DNA of 34,935 bases from a virus. The DNA lies in IMG/VR virus record IMGVR_UViG_3300048834_000074, positions 1-34,935 of that record; one strand, 5' to 3'. The notes under the pieces are model-generated. The model was not told the origin of the DNA. It saw only the letters and a list, made by a program, of their open reading frames with translations, and searched no databases. Of the stretch, positions 2,290 through 33,228 are shown piece after piece. A program made the translations under genes and the position numbers. Position 1 is the stretch's first letter. Each line of letters begins with the position of its first letter.

Positions 2290-3783
2290 TCAGCCCGTCA
2301 GCCGACGAACACGCCGCACCCGTAGCGCCAGAATCCACAGGGTGTCATCGAACGTGTCGCCGCCGTTACTCCACGACCGCTCGATCGTGATGCGGGTTGC
2401 TTTGCCTTGCTGAACCGCAAGAGGGGCCACGGCGGGGTAGCCGAGCAGCTCGAACCATGCGGGCACGTTCTGAGCGGGCATCGTGGCGATCAACTGCCGG
2501 AACGTGCCGGCGTTGAGCGTGTCGCCATCGCCTGCGACTTGGTGGCGCGTCGGCAGGACGAAACCGCCTGAAAGTGCGCCCCCGTTGACGACCAACGCGT
2601 CGATGGTGAAGTGGTGCCAGTCGGACGGCAGCGGTGGGATCACCACGCCGACGCCATCAGAGGCGTTGTGTCGTAGCCCCTTGGCGGGCCAGCCCACGGT
2701 CGGGACTGGTCCTGCTGGCGGCGCACCGAGGGTGGTCTGTAGCTCGCCTGCACCGATCCAGATTTCGTCGGTGGTTCGTGCGAGTTCGGTGGCGGCGGGT
2801 GGCGGGAATGCCCAAACGTCGCCGCCGTTGGGTGTAGAGAAATCGAAGTCGCGTATCAGGCCGAGCCGCCAGATGGCCTGGTCGTGGTTGGCGCCCGTGT
2901 CATCCATGCCAGTGAGCATGATGTCGAAGCGGTCGGGGATGCCTGATGCCGCGACCATGATGTCGCTGCGGTAGTGCCCCTGAGCGTCGAAGCGGCCACC
3001 CGACAGCGGCACCGAGGGCGCCGTGTCGCCCGTCCACGTCAGTCCATCCGTGCTCGCCCAATAGAACAGTCGGTAGGGGGCGGTGCCTGTCGGCACTGAC
3101 GCCGTGGCAAGCGCGTGGTAAACGCCGTTGGCGTCCTGCTCCACTGCGAGATGCCAAAGCCCGTAAGGCGATGGGAGTGTGGGGCGGGTGCCGAGGGTGG
3201 CCGACGTCCATGTGATCCCATCGGCCGACGTGCGCCTGGCGATGTTGTCATCCACCTCGAACATCGTGTACGAGCCATCCGACTCGATCACGATTGATGG
3301 CGAGACGCCCGCGTCCGTGACGACCACCGCCAGCTCGGTCCATGTGATGCCGTCTGTCGACGTGGTGCGCACGTATTCGTTGGCGACGCCCGTGTCTGTC
3401 CCCTTGAAGTACAGCACCATCGTGTCGCCGTCGAGGACCATCTCCGTGTCAGCCCAGTAGTCGTAGCCCGCCGACACCGCGTCAGCCAATGAAGCAATCG
3501 GATTGGTGAGCCCTTCGGGGACTTCCCAGTTGACGCCATCATTGGAGGCGACGATCGACGGGTTCTCGCGCGGTGACGCCGGGAACGGCGTGAACGCCAT
3601 CCAGTATGTGTACCCATTCCACCCGTCAGCGACGTACACCACCGATGGGTGGCCGATGCTCGGGTTGTTGTCGTAGACGGGAACGTCCAGCGGGATGAAT
3701 GCTGACGCCTGCGATCCGCTTTGCAGTGTGGCGAGGCGGTTGTGTTCGGCGACGTGCCCTGAGGAATTCTCGACGAATGTCAT
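2290..3783 (-). CDS. Beta-propeller glycosidase-like tail protein
   Basis: The 497-residue protein starts with a tail-attachment segment (FVENSSGHVAEHN). From about residue 35 it carries the signature of five-bladed beta-propeller glycoside hydrolases (GH43/sialidase-like): IGHPSVVYVADGWNGYTYW, then ENPSIVASNDGVNWEVP, WADTEMVLDGD, and repeated DGITWT or DGLTWT blade motifs. The propeller spans roughly residues 35-320. The remaining 170 residues look like a beta-sandwich. It probably binds or trims a host polysaccharide at the tail tip. The start overlaps the upstream stop by one base (TAATG). Whether it is catalytically active cannot be seen from sequence alone. Confidence 0.78.
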   Translation of the reverse strand: MTFVENSSGHVAEHNRLATLQSGSQASAFIPLDVPVYDNNPSIGHPSVVYVADGWNGYTYWMAFTPFPASPRENPSIVASNDGVNWEVPEGLTNPIASLADAVSAGYDYWADTEMVLDGDTMVLYFKGTDTGVANEYVRTTSTDGITWTELAVVVTDAGVSPSIVIESDGSYTMFEVDDNIARRTSADGITWTSATLGTRPTLPSPYGLWHLAVEQDANGVYHALATASVPTGTAPYRLFYWASTDGLTWTGDTAPSVPLSGGRFDAQGHYRSDIMVAASGIPDRFDIMLTGMDDTGANHDQAIWRLGLIRDFDFSTPNGGDVWAFPPPAATELARTTDEIWIGAGELQTTLGAPPAGPVPTVGWPAKGLRHNASDGVGVVIPPLPSDWHHFTIDALVVNGGALSGGFVLPTRHQVAGDGDTLNAGTFRQLIATMPAQNVPAWFELLGYPAVAPLAVQQGKATRITIERSWSNGGDTFDDTLWILALRVRRVRRLTG

Positions 3784-5159
3784 TACGCCCGCCTGAACGC
3801 GATAGATGGTGAAGCAGGGTTACCCGCTGCAACACTGAGACCGCTGCCGTTTCCGATGGTCGGTGACCCCGGCAGCGCGCCGGTGACTGATCCGACCGTG
3901 AGAGCGGAGGTTGGGAAGGCCAGACCGCTCGAAGCAGTGGTGGAAGACAGAACACCGAAACCCTGCGACTTGGTACGTACGGCGGGGGCGGTGGTGCTGG
4001 TTGTCTGCCAGACGATGCCGAACAACGTCCACCCTGCCGGGATCGTCGTGGAAACAGTCGCCTCCTTGTACCCCGTCGTCGACGGGTCAACCGTCCCCGC
4101 ATCGAGAAGCAGGGTCCCTCCTCCTCCGGCGACAGCATCGGCGTCATAGAGGCCGAGACGCAGCACGCCCGTACCGGGCGTGGTGACCTCGATGGCGATG
4201 CGGTCGACGGTCACCGCCGCAGGCATGAAGAATGGGTACAGGTAGAGGTTCTGGAACCTGTTGATGAAGCTGCCGACACCGATGGTGGAATCGGCCCCGA
4301 CCGGCGACACGTAGTGCCCGACCGTCGATGACGCCATGTTCAGAGCGGTCGGGCGCGTTTCGATCTTGTCGTCCAGGCCGACAAGCGCCTCTGACACGTC
4401 GTCAACTGTGAAGTCGGAGTTGAACACGTCACCTACGACGATCGCGGTGGCGTCATGTGCGCCTGTCGTGTCGGAGATGTGGGCGGCTGCGATCGGCTCC
4501 GCTATCGGCGCATACTGCGAAGCAAGCGACGCGTTCAGGTTCGTCGGGATGTTCCCGGCCGCCAATGTCGTCAGGTCAGCATCGAGCGGCTGATAGGTCG
4601 AGGCCAACCCGTCAACGGCTGAGAGTTGTGCAGCGGTGGCGAACTTGTTGGTCGTCGATGTGTCATCGATGTCGTCGGCGTCCAACACGACCACACCGGT
4701 CGCACCATTCACCGAATCAACCGCACCACCCCCGCCGGCGCCTCCGATCACCTCGACGGCGATCGACAGACCATCACCAGTCGTCACAGCGAACGTCCGC
4801 TCGAACGACGGCTGCGCCTTCGCCGAACCCGGCGGGTAGATCGAGATCGACCCACCGAGCCAAGGGAACCCGTCGACCGTCACCGACACCCGACCCGGCG
4901 AACCGGCGAGCGACGTCAACAGTGCGGTCGTCTTCACGCCCGTCAACGTCAACGTCAACACGTTGTCACCAGCACCGGAGATCGTCTGGCCGAACGTCGT
5001 CGCCTCCACCCCGGTCGCCGTGAGGATCTGCGCGACGATCGTCGCACCCGACAGATCCACGGGCGCGTCGGCGAGCGTCGCCGTGAACTCCAACGACACC
5101 GGGGCACCGGCCCACACGTTGATGTCGACCGGGTGCGGTCGAAGCTCGACAACAGTCAT
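3783..5159 (-). CDS. Tail fibre / baseplate-like protein
   Basis: The start is ATG 5159 with AGGAG six bases upstream, giving 458 residues. The open frame extends further upstream, but that part is antisense-like Arg/Ser-rich sequence inside the next gene and has no ribosome site. Residues 1-115 resemble the N-terminal beta domain of baseplate-upper-type proteins (WAGAPVSLEFTATLADAPVDL). A Gly-rich hinge and the duplicated VDSVNGATGVVVLDADD linker follow at about 140-185. A fibre shaft with a YQPLDADLT segment comes next, and a beta-rich head occupies about 280-458. It probably joins the tail tip to receptor-binding parts. The exact family is uncertain. Confidence 0.75.
   Translation of the reverse strand: MTVVELRPHPVDINVWAGAPVSLEFTATLADAPVDLSGATIVAQILTATGVEATTFGQTISGAGDNVLTLTLTGVKTTALLTSLAGSPGRVSVTVDGFPWLGGSISIYPPGSAKAQPSFERTFAVTTGDGLSIAVEVIGGAGGGGAVDSVNGATGVVVLDADDIDDTSTTNKFATAAQLSAVDGLASTYQPLDADLTTLAAGNIPTNLNASLASQYAPIAEPIAAAHISDTTGAHDATAIVVGDVFNSDFTVDDVSEALVGLDDKIETRPTALNMASSTVGHYVSPVGADSTIGVGSFINRFQNLYLYPFFMPAAVTVDRIAIEVTTPGTGVLRLGLYDADAVAGGGGTLLLDAGTVDPSTTGYKEATVSTTIPAGWTLFGIVWQTTSTTAPAVRTKSQGFGVLSSTTASSGLAFPTSALTVGSVTGALPGSPTIGNGSGLSVAAGNPASPSIAFRRA
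4618..4740. repeat. Tail-fibre linker module, copy 2
   Basis: This is the second copy of the hinge and linker found at 1990-2110, in the same orientation and frame. It differs mainly at synonymous or conservative positions (for example AATTNKF against TSTTNKF). Confidence 0.85.
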
Positions 5160-26638: not shown

Positions 26639-28264
26639 TCAGGCAGCCGACGTGGCTGCGGTTTCCGTCAGGACGACGTCGCCCTGATCGGAGAAGGTGA
26701 CGAGGGTCAGGTTGTCCCTCACGGACTGGGCGACCTCGGCGGCGTGGCGCGCCTCGGCGATCGAGAGATGCGCGAGCACGACGCCGATCGGGTTGGCCGG
26801 CATCAGCGCCTGTTCGGAGTCCGTCGAGGCCGACAGAACGGCGCGCACGACCTCGCCGAACGTGGCGTCGTCGGCGTCCTCGGGTGCGTCATGGATGATC
26901 GAGGCGAGCGCGTAGGCGGCCCGGGTGATCTCGACGTGACGCTCCCGGTGCCCGTTGCGGGGCTGCCACGACATCGAAGCGTCGGCGGCCTCGCGGAGCC
27001 AACCGTTGACGATCGAGCGCACTGGCGAGCCCTTGATGGTCGCCAGCAGCGAATCCACCACGTCGGCGTCGAGCACGCGCCCGTCGTCGATGCGACTCGG
27101 CGAAGTCTCGACCTCGACGTGACGGTACGGCTGGCGCTTGGTCGGCGGATCGTCGAACGGCCCGACGATCTCGTTGATCGCCGCCTGCGCCCTGACGAGC
27201 TGCTCGGGCGTCCAGGTGGCCTCGCCCTTGCGGACCCGTCCGGGTGTCGGCACGCCTGAGGGCCACTCGGCGGCGAGCAGCTTCTTCAGCTCGCCGCCCC
27301 AGTCGGCGATCGAGTTGGCGAGTTCGAGCGCAGGGTCGGGGGCGGGGTCCGACCCTGCGCTTCGCTCGACCTCGGCGTGAACGTCCGAAGGAGCGACGCC
27401 GGCCGTCCCAGCCGACGCGATCTGTGTCTTCGCCTTCGGCCACATGCGCCCGATCGGGGCGCGCTCGTCCTGGCGGGCGACCCACCAGGCGTGAGCGTGC
27501 GTCCAGTGTTCGGCGGCGGCGGCGAGGTCGACGGGGTACACGGCGAATCCGTCCGGCTTGATCGACACGATCAGGCCGCCGTCGATCTGCGGGATCGGAC
27601 GGCGCTCGCCGTCGACGATCATGTACTCCGCCGAGCGGATCGCGCCGAGCTGGGCCGCCTCGGTGGCGTAGCAGCCGTGACGGGAGTCGTCACCGCGCGA
27701 CTTCCAGTCGATGGCGTAGACCTTGCCCTTGATCCGCACGAGGGCGTCAGCGGTGCAGGCGTAACCTCGACCGTGCAGAGTCCGGTTGAAGCACACGTAC
27801 TCGGCGAGGATCGGCTCGGGCTGGTACTGGGCGAAGAACGCCTCGACCGCCTCGATGTACTCGTGGCCCGGCTGGCCTGGCGTGAGCGGCTGCGGCTCGC
27901 CGTTCAGCATCGCTTCGGCGACGAGGTGGACGTTGGTCCCACGCAGGGCTGCGGCCTTCAGCCCTTCGGCATTGATGCGGCGCATCTCAGCACCGATCGC
28001 CTCGGCGTCGAGGCCGGCGAAGCGGCCAGGGTCGGACTCGACGATGGCGGCCACACGCTTGATGGTGACGTTGGACCAGTCCGAGCCCGAAGCGGACTTG
28101 ACCGTGGATTGCGACACGAACAGCGCGTCGGTGGCCTCGGCGACCTCGCAGCCCGGGAGCGGGTCGCGATACCAGAATGGTCCGCGTCCATTGATCTGTG
28201 TCCGCAGCCAGTGGTCGCCGTAGGTGTCGGTGCTCTTCGGACGCGTCTCGAGTGATGTTCCCAT
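26639..28264 (-). CDS. PD-(D/E)XK exonuclease, RecB-like
   Basis: ATG 28264 overlaps the stop of the small membrane protein gene by one base. Of its 541 residues, about 105-215 carry the RecB/Cas4-like nuclease core: RGTNVHLVAEAML (His113), YACTADALVRI (Asp173), YAIDWKSRG (Asp186, Lys188) and AAQLGAIRSAEY (Gln205). The C-terminal half lacks a known domain and is helical. With the SSB-like protein it would form a phage recombination or DNA-processing pair. It could also degrade host DNA. Confidence 0.85.
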   Translation of the reverse strand: MGTSLETRPKSTDTYGDHWLRTQINGRGPFWYRDPLPGCEVAEATDALFVSQSTVKSASGSDWSNVTIKRVAAIVESDPGRFAGLDAEAIGAEMRRINAEGLKAAALRGTNVHLVAEAMLNGEPQPLTPGQPGHEYIEAVEAFFAQYQPEPILAEYVCFNRTLHGRGYACTADALVRIKGKVYAIDWKSRGDDSRHGCYATEAAQLGAIRSAEYMIVDGERRPIPQIDGGLIVSIKPDGFAVYPVDLAAAAEHWTHAHAWWVARQDERAPIGRMWPKAKTQIASAGTAGVAPSDVHAEVERSAGSDPAPDPALELANSIADWGGELKKLLAAEWPSGVPTPGRVRKGEATWTPEQLVRAQAAINEIVGPFDDPPTKRQPYRHVEVETSPSRIDDGRVLDADVVDSLLATIKGSPVRSIVNGWLREAADASMSWQPRNGHRERHVEITRAAYALASIIHDAPEDADDATFGEVVRAVLSASTDSEQALMPANPIGVVLAHLSIAEARHAAEVAQSVRDNLTLVTFSDQGDVVLTETAATSAA

Positions 28265-29533: not shown

Positions 29534-29631
29534 CGCACGCCCCCTTCTGGCCAGGGCGCAGTCGATGCCCGGTGGTACCGGTAGGCGCGTAACGGGTGAC
29601 GGAGGCAGAAGGCTGCGAGACGGCGGGTCAT
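29530..29631 (-). CDS. Micro-gene, 33 aa, basic
   Basis: ATG 29631 overlaps the HNH stop, and the stop overlaps the next ATG, both as ATGA. The product starts MTRRLAAFCLRHPLRAYRYH, an amphipathic basic helix, and ends with PWPEGGVR. Similar short basic peptides occur in actinophage early regions. Its own translation is likely because of the overlaps. The function is unknown. Confidence 0.5.
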   Translation of the reverse strand: MTRRLAAFCLRHPLRAYRYHRASTAPWPEGGVR

Positions 29632-30245
29632 CGCTGCCCCTTGAGCAACTCGACGGCCTGATCGTCGTCATGCAGCCACGTCCACCGCTCGCGCCGCTTG
29701 ATGCGTGAGACCTGAGCAAGCGATACGCCGTACTCGGCCCCGATGGTGCTGCACGATCGAGCGTCAGCTCGGATGGCGATTACCTGGGCTTCAGTCAGCT
29801 TTGTGACTGGACGCGCCTTGCCGAGCGGCAAACGTCCACGTCGGATCATGTCATCGACGTTGTCCGCATTGTTCCCCCATCGCAGGTGAGTCGGGTTCAC
29901 GCATGGTGGGTTGTCGCAGGAGTGCAGCGCGTGTGGCTTGCCCTCGGGTGGTTCTCCTGCAGCATCGATCAGGGCAATCCGGTGGGCCAAGAAGTTTGAA
30001 CCGTTGGCGTGGAGTTGTCCGTAGCCCCTGTCGTTCGTATACCCGGAGAAGATCCAGCAATCGTCGAACTCGGATCTGATTGTCTGGTCCCGAACACGCT
30101 CGATCAGCGACATCCCGTCGCGTCGCTTGGCGATGGGCGCCGTGGATGTGTCGCCCCGCTTCTTCCTCTTGTAGTGCCCGTTGCACAGGTAGGTCGTCCT
30201 GGTCAAGATGTCGCAGCCGGGCACAGCGCAGACCTTGAGTGCCAT
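29628..30245 (-). CDS. HNH homing endonuclease with C-terminal HTH
   Basis: The 205-residue protein starts at ATG 30245, a TGATG overlap with the gene before it. An N-terminal zinc-like site is at CAVPGCD (6-12) and CNGHYK. The central HNH motif is HALHSCDNPPCVNPTHLRW (His108, Cys110, Cys115, Asn117, His120). The C-terminus has a helix-turn-helix (TEAQVIAIRADARS...IGAEYGVSLAQVSRIK). This layout fits a free-standing homing endonuclease inserted in the early region. Confidence 0.85.
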   Translation of the reverse strand: MALKVCAVPGCDILTRTTYLCNGHYKRKKRGDTSTAPIAKRRDGMSLIERVRDQTIRSEFDDCWIFSGYTNDRGYGQLHANGSNFLAHRIALIDAAGEPPEGKPHALHSCDNPPCVNPTHLRWGNNADNVDDMIRRGRLPLGKARPVTKLTEAQVIAIRADARSCSTIGAEYGVSLAQVSRIKRRERWTWLHDDDQAVELLKGQR

Positions 30246-30671: not shown

Positions 30672-31606
30672 GACGCGACCGCCTGGCGGCGGTACTTTGG
30701 TTGAGCCAACGTCCGCATCAGATCGCAAACAAGTTGAGCATCCGGTCGGCGGGCCTGGATGACCAGCAATTCATCGATCGCGGACGCCAGTTCCGATGCC
30801 TTCTTCTCCATCTCGGCGATCTGTTGACGCCGATAGGAGAGCATCCACTGCAACTGCTGGACGGTGGCCGATTGGACTGGGACGCGGTACCAGGCTTCTT
30901 CGTGGTAGTAGGTCACGTAGCGCGGCAACCCGTCGATGTGCGCTTCCTCGCTGTCATCTCCCACGGTGGCGTCCTCGACGAGCGCGTCGCGAATGACGTC
31001 CTTGACCAGCTCGCCCTCCGCCGTGCTCCACGGCTTCGCCCAGTGCAACTCGTTCCGCAGTGACTCGGCAAGCTGATTGATGGTTAGGGGCCTGGCCCGT
31101 TCGGTCGCATCGATCCGGTCGAGTAGCAGTGCCGCAGCGTTTCGAATCTGCTGGCGGTCGAGGTCGTCGTACGTCGGCGTTGGACGGTTGCGACCACTGC
31201 GCCAGTCCTCTCCCATCTCAGCCAGTTCGGCATCCTCGACCATCTGCTTGTAGGCCCGGTACGCGGCGATCGCCGTCGTCTTCTTTGATGCCAGTCCGAT
31301 GACTGACTGAAACACCTCCTCGTTGAGCAGATCCTTCGCCGGTCGACGTTGGTGCTGCGGCAGCATCTCGGTGGCACCGATCCTGGCGACGGCTCGGAGA
31401 GCGTGGATCTCGAACAGAATGCAACGGTGCATCACTCGGTCGTTGCACTTCATCGCCTGAGCGATCTTTCGGAACTGTGCCGCCTTGTCCGTGGCGTCGA
31501 TCAGTTCGTCGGCGGACATCTCGACAAGGCGGTCGATGGCGACATCGATGGCTCGTACCTGCGCCTCAACGTCGCCGTGCGGAGACAGTGCGGGCAGCGC
31601 GCTCAT
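30668..31606 (-). CDS. Early helical protein, 312 aa
   Basis: ATG 31606 overlaps the upstream stop by four bases. The 312-residue product is helical, with charged helices at about 15-75 and 155-215, a beta-like centre near 225-245 (GLPRYVTYYHEEAWYRVP), and a coiled-coil C-terminal part (QLQWMLSYRRQQIAEMEKK). It is the second gene of the early operon and is likely nucleic-acid binding or regulatory. No known family is recognised. It is one of the larger unassigned genes here. Confidence 0.7.
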   Translation of the reverse strand: MSALPALSPHGDVEAQVRAIDVAIDRLVEMSADELIDATDKAAQFRKIAQAMKCNDRVMHRCILFEIHALRAVARIGATEMLPQHQRRPAKDLLNEEVFQSVIGLASKKTTAIAAYRAYKQMVEDAELAEMGEDWRSGRNRPTPTYDDLDRQQIRNAAALLLDRIDATERARPLTINQLAESLRNELHWAKPWSTAEGELVKDVIRDALVEDATVGDDSEEAHIDGLPRYVTYYHEEAWYRVPVQSATVQQLQWMLSYRRQQIAEMEKKASELASAIDELLVIQARRPDAQLVCDLMRTLAQPKYRRQAVAS

Positions 31607-31806
31607 GCCGCCACCTCGCCGTACCACGAACGCAGCGCCTCGTGAGACACCGTGATCTCGCCGTTGGTGTCCTCGGCGAGCTGGTCGGCGATCAATCGCC
31701 AGGGCCAGCGGGGGCGGGCGTTGCGCTTCTCGGTGACGTACTCGGCGAGCGAGCGTCCCAGCGCAACCTCTGCGAGCCGTTGAGTCGGCGTCATCTCCAT
31801 TGACAT
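31603..31806 (-). CDS. Small HTH protein, first early gene (Cro- or Xis-like)
   Basis: ATG 31806 gives a 67-residue protein (ATG 31800 and 31794 are alternatives). The C-terminal part, RPRWPWRLIADQLAEDTNGEITVSHEALRSW, forms an HTH of the type seen in small actinophage regulators. The last residues are GEVAA, ending in two alanines like an ssrA-type degron. It is divergent from the repressor gene, which is the position of Cro. A -35/-10 pair ends six bases before ATG 31806, suggesting a leaderless transcript. Cro against Xis cannot be decided. Confidence 0.72.
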   Translation of the reverse strand: MSMEMTPTQRLAEVALGRSLAEYVTEKRNARPRWPWRLIADQLAEDTNGEITVSHEALRSWYGEVAA

Positions 31807-31880
31807 GACGTCATCATGACACGGTGATGACGCTACGTCAACACCTAATCTCTGGTTGCATGTTTGTTGACATCCTGTCA
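31801..31880. promoter_or_regulatory. Switch region with three 13-bp operator-like sites
   Basis: Three copies of a TGAC-R, 3-base, Y-GTCA type motif occur: 31801-31813 (TGACA-TGA-CGTCA), 31828-31840 (TGACG-CTA-CGTCA) and 31868-31880 (TGACA-TCC-TGTCA). An 8-bp inverted repeat (CGTCATCA ... TGATGACG, 31809-31832) and a 10-bp palindrome ATGACGTCAT overlap them. They lie between the divergent early and repressor genes, as expected for a repressor/Cro switch. Confidence 0.7.
31807..31841 (-). promoter_or_regulatory. Candidate leaderless early promoter
   Basis: On the minus strand TTGACG (31836-31841) and CATGAT (31813-31818) are 17 bases apart, and ATG 31806 begins after exactly six bases. This fits a leaderless mRNA start. 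Operator-like sites cover both boxes, so the repressor could shut the early operon. Confidence 0.55.
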
Positions 31881-31890
31881 GGATCGTGAT

Positions 31891-32232
31891 GTGGCAGACA
31901 CACTCATCCCCAGCAGGGCGCCGACGTATGCGACGGATCGCAGGATCGGCCAAGCAGTGGCGGCGGAGATCGCCTACTCCGGACGCAGCCGAACGGCGGT
32001 CGCGGAGGCGATCGGGCTCGACAAGGCGTCATTCAGTCGATCGATCGCAGGCAACCGGCAGTGGAAAGCGAGCGAGATCATCGACATTGCGTCAACGCTC
32101 GACATCCCGGTCAGCTACCTGATGGAGCCTCGACGGCCGAACACGACACCTGACCAGGGCGGTAGCCCTTCAGCGTGCAATGACGACGCCCTGATCCTCA
32201 AGTTCCCCTCAACCGCTCAAGTAGCAGCGTGA
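31891..32232 (+). CDS. HTH repressor, immunity
   Basis: GTG 31891 (with AGGA eight bases upstream) gives 113 residues. An XRE-like HTH spans about 31-75: RTAVAEAIGLDKASFSRSIAG (helices 2-3), then EIIDIASTLDIPVSYLM. Residues 80-113 form a low-complexity linker ending STAQVAA. The last alanines look like an ssrA-type tag. The stop overlaps the integrase start (GTGA), making a repressor-integrase unit. This order matches integration-dependent immunity phages, where recombination inside the repressor gene removes the tag. This is inferred, not shown. Confidence 0.78.
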   Translation: MADTLIPSRAPTYATDRRIGQAVAAEIAYSGRSRTAVAEAIGLDKASFSRSIAGNRQWKASEIIDIASTLDIPVSYLMEPRRPNTTPDQGGSPSACNDDALILKFPSTAQVAA

Positions 32233-33125
32233 CTGCCACGATACTCCCCCTCGTGGGAACGCTGTCACCGCACGTCAGGGAGTATCTGCGAGGACGGGTC
32301 GCACGAGCGGAGATCAGCCGCCAGACCGCCACCGACCTCTCCTACTGCCTCGCCGGGCTCACCCAGTCGTTCGGAAACCGGCCACTCACACAGTTTGGAC
32401 CGAAAGCGATCGACCGGTGGCTCGAATCGATCGGAGATCGCGCCCCCGCCACACGGCGCGAGTACCTGTCGAGAGTTCGGACGTTCTGCAACTGGCTCGC
32501 CACCGAAGGTCACATCCTCGCCAACCCGACCGGGCACGTACCGACGATCCGCCAGCCGCGCCAGGTGCCTCGCACGCTCACCGAGGCCGAAGTCGCCGTG
32601 CTCATCGCAGCCTGCCCGGACGACCGGGCACGGGCGATCGTCTGGCTCATGGTCGGGTGTGGCCTGCGCTGCGTCGAGGTGTCACGCCTCGACATCCACC
32701 ACTACGACCCGGCCACACGCACGCTCATCGCCACGGGCAAGGCGCTGCACGAACGCAGCATCCCGGTGCCCGCCGAAGTCGCTCAAGCAGTTGACACCTA
32801 CCTCGACAAAGCCGGGCGACCTGGAGGACCACTGTTGCGAACCCAAGCCGGCCATCGAATGGCGGCAAAGACCATCTCGTCATACGTGCGCCGCTGGATG
32901 CGAGACGCAGGAATCAAGACCGCGCCGCTCGACGGCCGATCGGCGCACGGACTCCGACGCACTGCGGCGAGCGACGTGATGGACCGATGCGGCGACATCC
33001 AAGTCGTACAGGAGATGCTCGGACACGTCCGGGTCGAGACGACCGCACGCGCCTACCTGCGCCCCGTTCCCATTCACAAGATGCGCCGAGCGATGGAAGG
33101 CCGGACATACAACGGAGCAGCCTGA
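32229..33125 (+). CDS. int: Tyrosine integrase
   Basis: The 298-residue tyrosine recombinase starts with GTG in a 4-base overlap with the repressor stop. Residues 1-105 are the SAM-like core-binding domain (SPHVREYLRGRVARAEIS ... LSRVRTFCNWL). The catalytic part has Arg147 (GCGLRCVEVSRL), Lys171 (ATGKALHERSIPVP), His240 and Arg243 (SAHGLRRTAASDV), His266 (MLGHVRVETTARAYL) and nucleophile Tyr276. It is Xer-sized, with no long arm-binding domain. The end, RTYNGAA, again shows two C-terminal alanines. It should catalyse integration and, with a helper, excision. Confidence 0.93.
   Translation: MTATILPLVGTLSPHVREYLRGRVARAEISRQTATDLSYCLAGLTQSFGNRPLTQFGPKAIDRWLESIGDRAPATRREYLSRVRTFCNWLATEGHILANPTGHVPTIRQPRQVPRTLTEAEVAVLIAACPDDRARAIVWLMVGCGLRCVEVSRLDIHHYDPATRTLIATGKALHERSIPVPAEVAQAVDTYLDKAGRPGGPLLRTQAGHRMAAKTISSYVRRWMRDAGIKTAPLDGRSAHGLRRTAASDVMDRCGDIQVVQEMLGHVRVETTARAYLRPVPIHKMRRAMEGRTYNGAA
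32236..32256 (+). other. Inverted repeat at the repressor-integrase border
   Basis: CCACGA-(9 bases)-TCGTGG lies just inside the integrase coding start. It could be an RNA hairpin limiting integrase translation or core-type integrase sites. In the preceding repressor 3' end, CTCAAGT occurs at 32197 and 32216 and CTCAA at 32208, possible arm or core sites. Confidence 0.4.
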
Positions 33126-33142
33126 CCCGAAAACGCGAAGAA

Positions 33143-33201
33143 GGCCCCGGCGCGGTTCCTCGCAACGCCAGGCGGAAGGCGTGCAGGAACCGGCCGGGGC
33201 C
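33143..33201. terminator. Large bidirectional terminator hairpin
   Basis: GGCCCCGGC(G)CGGTTCCT pairs over 17 bp, with one bulged base, with the complementary arm at 33185-33201. A nested inner stem (ACGCC/GGCGT) lies in the loop. It sits between the convergent integrase and holin genes. A pyrimidine-rich tract (TTCTTCGCGTTTT) follows on the minus strand, supporting termination of the lysis transcript. Confidence 0.85.
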
Positions 33202-33228
33202 GGGGTTCACCCGAGGGGGACCGGGCGA

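Follow-up and report, generated by a model that had tools for sequence, protein, structure and literature searches.

How does a phage lysogenize stably if its repressor is made unstable, and can integration itself be what stabilizes it? The question is raised by a locus in an IMG/VR viral record, 34,935 bases long (the whole of which is here called the window), where a repressor gene immediately precedes one for a tyrosine integrase and a small gene diverges from the pair. The order is reminiscent of mycobacteriophages BPs, Brujita and Charlie and their integration-dependent immunity, which Broussard and colleagues are said to have described in 2013. A preliminary description had proposed such a switch here, with Ala-Ala at the C-terminus of all three products as candidate degradation signal. 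The genes are as follows, and the window has no near DNA match to cultured phages.

31603..31806, minus strand: divergent small HTH-like gene with a putative Cro- or Xis-like role, product ending EVAA
31891..32232, plus strand: immunity repressor (HTH), 113 aa in its viral form from a predicted start codon, ending QVAA
32229..33125, plus strand: tyrosine integrase of the simple (arm-less) kind, 298 aa, ending NGAA

All three reading frames are present with the ends claimed for them (repressor STAQVAA, integrase RTYNGAA and divergent gene WYGEVAA, each followed by stop). In profile searches the repressor matches PHROG 4583, transcriptional repressor (E=1.8e-11), and Pfam BetR above cut-off; its start is most likely the GTG at 31891, giving the 113 aa, rather than the first TTG at 31864. 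Integrase residues 116-278 correspond to Pfam Phage_integrase, the catalytic domain (E=4.8e-24), and a Pfam SAM_1-like match, below cut-off, begins at residue 63 with little sequence ahead of the matched domains; there are thus only core-binding and catalytic domains and no room for an arm-binding domain, placing the protein with simple tyrosine recombinases such as IntBrujita (PMC8138268). Its start may instead be the GTG at 32253, which aligns better with relatives than the annotated one. The GTGA overlap of repressor stop and annotated integrase start, to which attention had been drawn earlier, does exist at 32229-32232 and, being absent from every relative, was dropped as a diagnostic feature. 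For the divergent gene there is a weak HTH_32 match, in a longer ORF, and its counterpart in viral contig L156 is 35% identical to it; comparison of the window's divergent gene with that of the element G001, introduced below, gave no significant similarity.

Relatives found with the integrase comprise viral contig L002 (41%), an integrated element of Acidiferrimicrobium sp. IK (L004/G001, 48-49%), a genome of the same class (G111, 62%), a contig of another genome of the order (G423, 42%), viral contigs L146 and L149, and more distant viral contigs. From the two best of these the host of the window phage probably belongs to the class Acidimicrobiia. In six relatives int is immediately preceded by a small repressor-like gene in the same orientation, contiguously in L002, G423, L146 and L149, and after rejoining of the prophage ends in G001 and G111; with the window they make up the seven close cassettes considered here. 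The stretch immediately ahead of int yielded no HTH gene in L148 and L150-L154, for which reason these contigs serve as outgroup only, and a scan of viral contigs with the repressor by itself gave no matches.

Two of the relatives are integrated and display their junctions. The G001 prophage is bounded by a 21-bp direct repeat, GGCCGGTGGTGGGTCTCGTTG, at 169048-169068 and 206353-206373 of contig C23 (37,305 bp apart), one copy being just upstream of int and the other (attR) within the repressor ORF. In the prophage the repressor ends GGGSR and stop; with the phage sides rejoined it reads GGGSRWNATRIAAVMPLHSDVAA and stop, with the tail WNATRIAAVMPLHSDVAA and the end DVAA, so that integration shortens it from 139 to 121 aa. 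On the host side integration took place at the 3' end of a gene which, judged by its sequence alone, looks like one for a histidine phosphatase. The G111 prophage splits the host gene dtd (PF02580): HMM positions 1-83 are at 873955-874212 and 78-144 at 834751-834948, the halves being some 39 kb apart on contig C1 (loci L114 and L116), and no second dtd copy was found in that genome. Thirteen relatives of the G111 family have an intact dtd across the site, i.e. an empty site. Here too attR is inside the repressor, whose prophage form ends QGGSPTA with a TGA completed by dtd sequence; the rejoined gene continues from QGGSPTA into WNDDRPGQVLAFRRLAA and stop (end FRRLAA), and integration takes the protein from 116 to 99 aa. 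The crossover was placed by eye within AGCGTG, common to attL, attR and most dtd genes. A G111 lysogen would lack dtd, the D-aminoacyl-tRNA deacylase gene, unless it is restored by excision.

In both prophages, then, attL is directly upstream of int and attR within the repressor gene, a TGG codon becomes TGA at the junction, and a tail of 17-18 residues is lost with the HTH domain kept in what remains. Location of attP within the repressor gene, on which the preliminary description had staked its proposal, is thereby borne out in both relatives with visible integration, where it is the Ala-Ala-ended tail that goes, and the window has the same attP island. Of the 30-residue low-complexity tail that, as was suggested, integration could remove, the removal stands for these two relatives; the length does not, and ‘low-complexity’ was a loose term for a short tail whose DNA holds the predicted attP.

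For the window itself the corresponding features are:

32155..32188, plus strand: predicted attP island lying within the repressor gene; 27/34 bases agree with the attP reconstructed from the G111 prophage
32171..32177, plus strand: predicted 7-bp crossover region, CAGCGTG, identical in the intact dtd of two relatives of the G111 host
32176..32229, plus strand: repressor tail predicted to be removed by integration, CNDDALILKFPSTAQVAA, 18 residues with an Ala-Ala end, the G111 and G001 tails being analogous

When the G111 attP is run against the whole window, the score of 27 at 32155-32188 is followed by a next best of 20, and when the two repressor genes are compared the best 34-base match is likewise at 32155 (27/34, with 22 as the best elsewhere); none of 1500 codon-shuffled pairs and none of 300 query shuffles reaches 27. 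No other stretch of the repressor gene is as well conserved as the island, the window and G111 repressors otherwise aligning poorly. Since, integrase aside, tblastn matches of window genes to the G111 prophage are at only about 27-33% identity, the island travels with the integrase. From this common island we infer that attP lies inside the repressor reading frame in the window also. Homology makes dtd the most likely integration target; it counts against this that attP and dtd have only a short core in common. Around the predicted cut the repressor reads QGGSPSA and then CNDDALILKFPSTAQVAA to the stop; an in-silico crossover into dtd converts the TGC at 32176-32178 to TGA and yields a repressor of 95 instead of 113 aa ending QGGSPSA, and the HTH match ends ahead of the cut. 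No lysogen of the window phage was found, BLAST of its repressor tail against 395 Acidimicrobiia genomes gave short coding-like matches only and no convincing attB, and in the attP region neither a tRNA nor an Rfam family was matched.

Taking together the cassette layout, the tail loss at an attP within the repressor gene of two related prophages, the common attP island and the recurrent Ala-Ala ends, all of which can be read directly from sequence, we are confident, if short of certain, that the window belongs to a temperate phage, with a host that is probably one of the Acidimicrobiia, and carries a cassette for integration-dependent immunity in which loss of the tail on integration turns immunity on. 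For the rest (where the window phage would integrate, how its repressor would be broken down and would repress, and in what sequence the steps would come) the scheme that we envisage is as follows. In the free phage the repressor with its 18-residue Ala-Ala tail would be degraded, probably by ClpXP, making lytic growth the default, and the integrase, Ala-Ala-ended as well, would probably be short-lived. Where enough integrase survived, attP (near 32171-32177, within the repressor gene) would recombine with the host site, most likely dtd, and the first host base would make the TGC codon a TGA stop. The lysogen would then have a 95-residue repressor devoid of the tag, stable and able to shut off the lytic promoter.

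How much weight can the Ala-Ala ends bear? They are present on the repressor in all seven close cassettes (QVAA in the window, RLAA in G111, DVAA in G001, LAAA in L002, KPAA in G423, LVAA in L146 and NPAA in L149), against a background of 10/149 non-cassette genes (6.7%, from a crude gene call on the window and four related phage sequences). The chance of 7/7 would be about 6e-9 for independent cassettes, and these, being related, are not fully independent; even so, their repressor tails differ in sequence and length, which argues that the common end is not simple inheritance. Integrases end in Ala-Ala in four of the seven (NGAA in the window, DYAA, RSAA and YLAA), with TYA, SAS and GNR in the other three. 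In L148, L150 and L152-L154, distant contigs in which no HTH gene turned up immediately ahead of int, the integrase stops at GRxY, so that the integrase Ala-Ala has the look of something added behind a conserved end. Divergent genes end variously (EVAA in the window, KGAA in G111, AVG in G001, EAAS in L002). The caution voiced earlier that such ends could be chance in GC-rich genes is consequently hard to sustain for the repressor, less readily dismissed for the integrase, and apt for the divergent gene, where Ala-Ala is not conserved. The nuclease cited in its favor does end as was said, and fits the 6.7% background:

26639-28264: exonuclease-like protein (PHROG 298), ending SAA

Ala-Ala ends are necessary, not sufficient, for recognition by ClpXP. 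Their recurrence in the cassettes, and the tmRNA tags of the host genomes, which end ALAA, SIAA or SLAA, argue indirectly for a degradation tag. An exception is the more distant cassette of contig L156 (integrase 30%; ORF 3363-3900): the repressor tail, TPQGGTLRSTRRCGDADGDATIILFPQ, resembles that of the window but continues and ends VKCG; it may represent the state before the tag or after it.

It is conceivable, and in our estimate unlikely, that attP is in the repressor gene and integration truncates the protein as proposed, with the tail working otherwise than through ClpXP degradation, whether by misfolding, steric block or transcription activation, and Ala-Ala being in part compositional. 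The 6.7% background in these Ala-rich genes and the untagged L156 repressor are compatible with this, as are certain M. abscessus prophages without Ala-Ala tags, presumed to depend on other degradation systems (PMC8092301); it fares poorly with seven of seven close repressor tails, of varied sequence and length, converging on the ending that host ssrA tags have. An ordinary repressor-integrase operon with attP elsewhere (for instance between the int and endolysin genes) and chance Ala-Ala ends could appeal to the window attP being predicted from relatives rather than observed and to other window genes such as the exonuclease ending in Ala-Ala, but is very improbable given that both relatives have attR in the repressor gene and attL just ahead of int, and that no stretch of that gene is better conserved than the attP island.

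Integration-dependent immunity through tail removal is thus the reading to be set beside known systems. The BPs repressor has 136 residues in its viral form and 103 in the prophage, the long form being degraded via an ssrA-like tag (PMC4557955). With BPs, Brujita and Charlie the cassette has in common co-directional repressor and integrase genes in that order, a divergent small gene, attP in the repressor gene and a C-terminal tail lost on integration; with Brujita it further has Ala-Ala ends on repressor and integrase (EHAA and SAA in Brujita) and an arm-less integrase. However, the window integrase is only 26% identical to Brujita's over 214 residues (E=3e-18), the tail is of 17-18 residues in the window and its relatives versus 33 in BPs, the host class is another, and attB of the two prophage relatives falls in protein-coding genes and not tRNA genes. 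M. abscessus prophages with this kind of immunity (MabC, MabH, MabK, MabN and MabO; PMC8092301) provide a parallel for the junction itself: in MabC, MabK, MabN and MabO it is the first bacterial base that completes the stop codon. Four of the attB sites used by tyrosine integrases there are something other than tRNAs, some non-tRNA sites have short cores, and several of the prophages have -AA tags. They differ in that the repressor loses 20-35 residues and that the tyrosine-integrase sites listed there spare genes or touch their ends, unlike the mid-gene splitting of dtd in G111. Integration-dependent immunity has been predicted for Gordonia phages Guacamole, Obliviate and Jeanie (PMC5559632, PMC4929511) and is also reported for Bifidobacterium phages (PMC6109161). 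Guacamole and its relatives embody the same cassette idea, and the window repressor is 30-35% identical to gp38 of Gordonia phage Bunker and to Guacamole gp41 and the integrase 28-34% identical to those of Gordonia phages; their attB, in contrast, is mostly tRNA with 20-40 bp cores, and in Guacamole the repressor match is to the divergent gene product gp41, not the int-linked gp40.

The kind of system is accordingly already known from BPs, Brujita and the M. abscessus prophages, and what is new is the host class, the target in two relatives being protein-coding; in the literature searched, no earlier report of integration-dependent immunity in Acidimicrobiia was found. We lean, with only modest conviction, to the broader view that integration-dependent immunity is at work in a family of phages of Acidimicrobiia, a class other than that to which the mycobacterial, Gordonia and Bifidobacterium hosts belong; that its conserved switch is the change of a single codon at the crossover, TGG or TGC to TGA, and its attB sites are protein-coding; and that in the branch where dtd is split lysogeny may turn host tRNA proofreading off and excision turn it back on. 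Such immunity ties the decision for lysogeny to the recombination event itself, and its descriptions come mainly from phages of Mycobacteriales; the Acidimicrobiia junctions, together with an integrase so distant from Brujita's, suggest that the design is older or more widely spread than cultured phages reveal. For uncultured phages, a search for attachment sites might look for a simple integrase preceded by a repressor that ends in Ala-Ala and has TGG or TGC about 9-18 residues before its end, a placement seen at two junctions and predicted elsewhere.

The sequences on either side of the two co-directional genes have features of their own:

31801..31880: three TGAC-N5-GTCA palindromes (at 31801, 31828 and 31868), candidate repressor operators
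33142..33201, plus strand: strong, terminator-like hairpin that follows int and lies between convergent genes (z=-3.9 for the fold of 33126-33225)

TGAC-N5-GTCA occurs four times in the whole window, where 1.07 would be expected, and three of the four are between the divergent starts. The hairpin, not reported by a consensus terminator scan, is likely a terminator between the convergent genes; AACGCGAAGA is ahead of it in the window (33126-33225), as it is ahead of a hairpin after int in L002 (5872-5925), the fold being that of the window version. Near the immunity region, at 29628-30245, there is in addition a gene for an HNH endonuclease (PHROG 59, E=3.3e-27).
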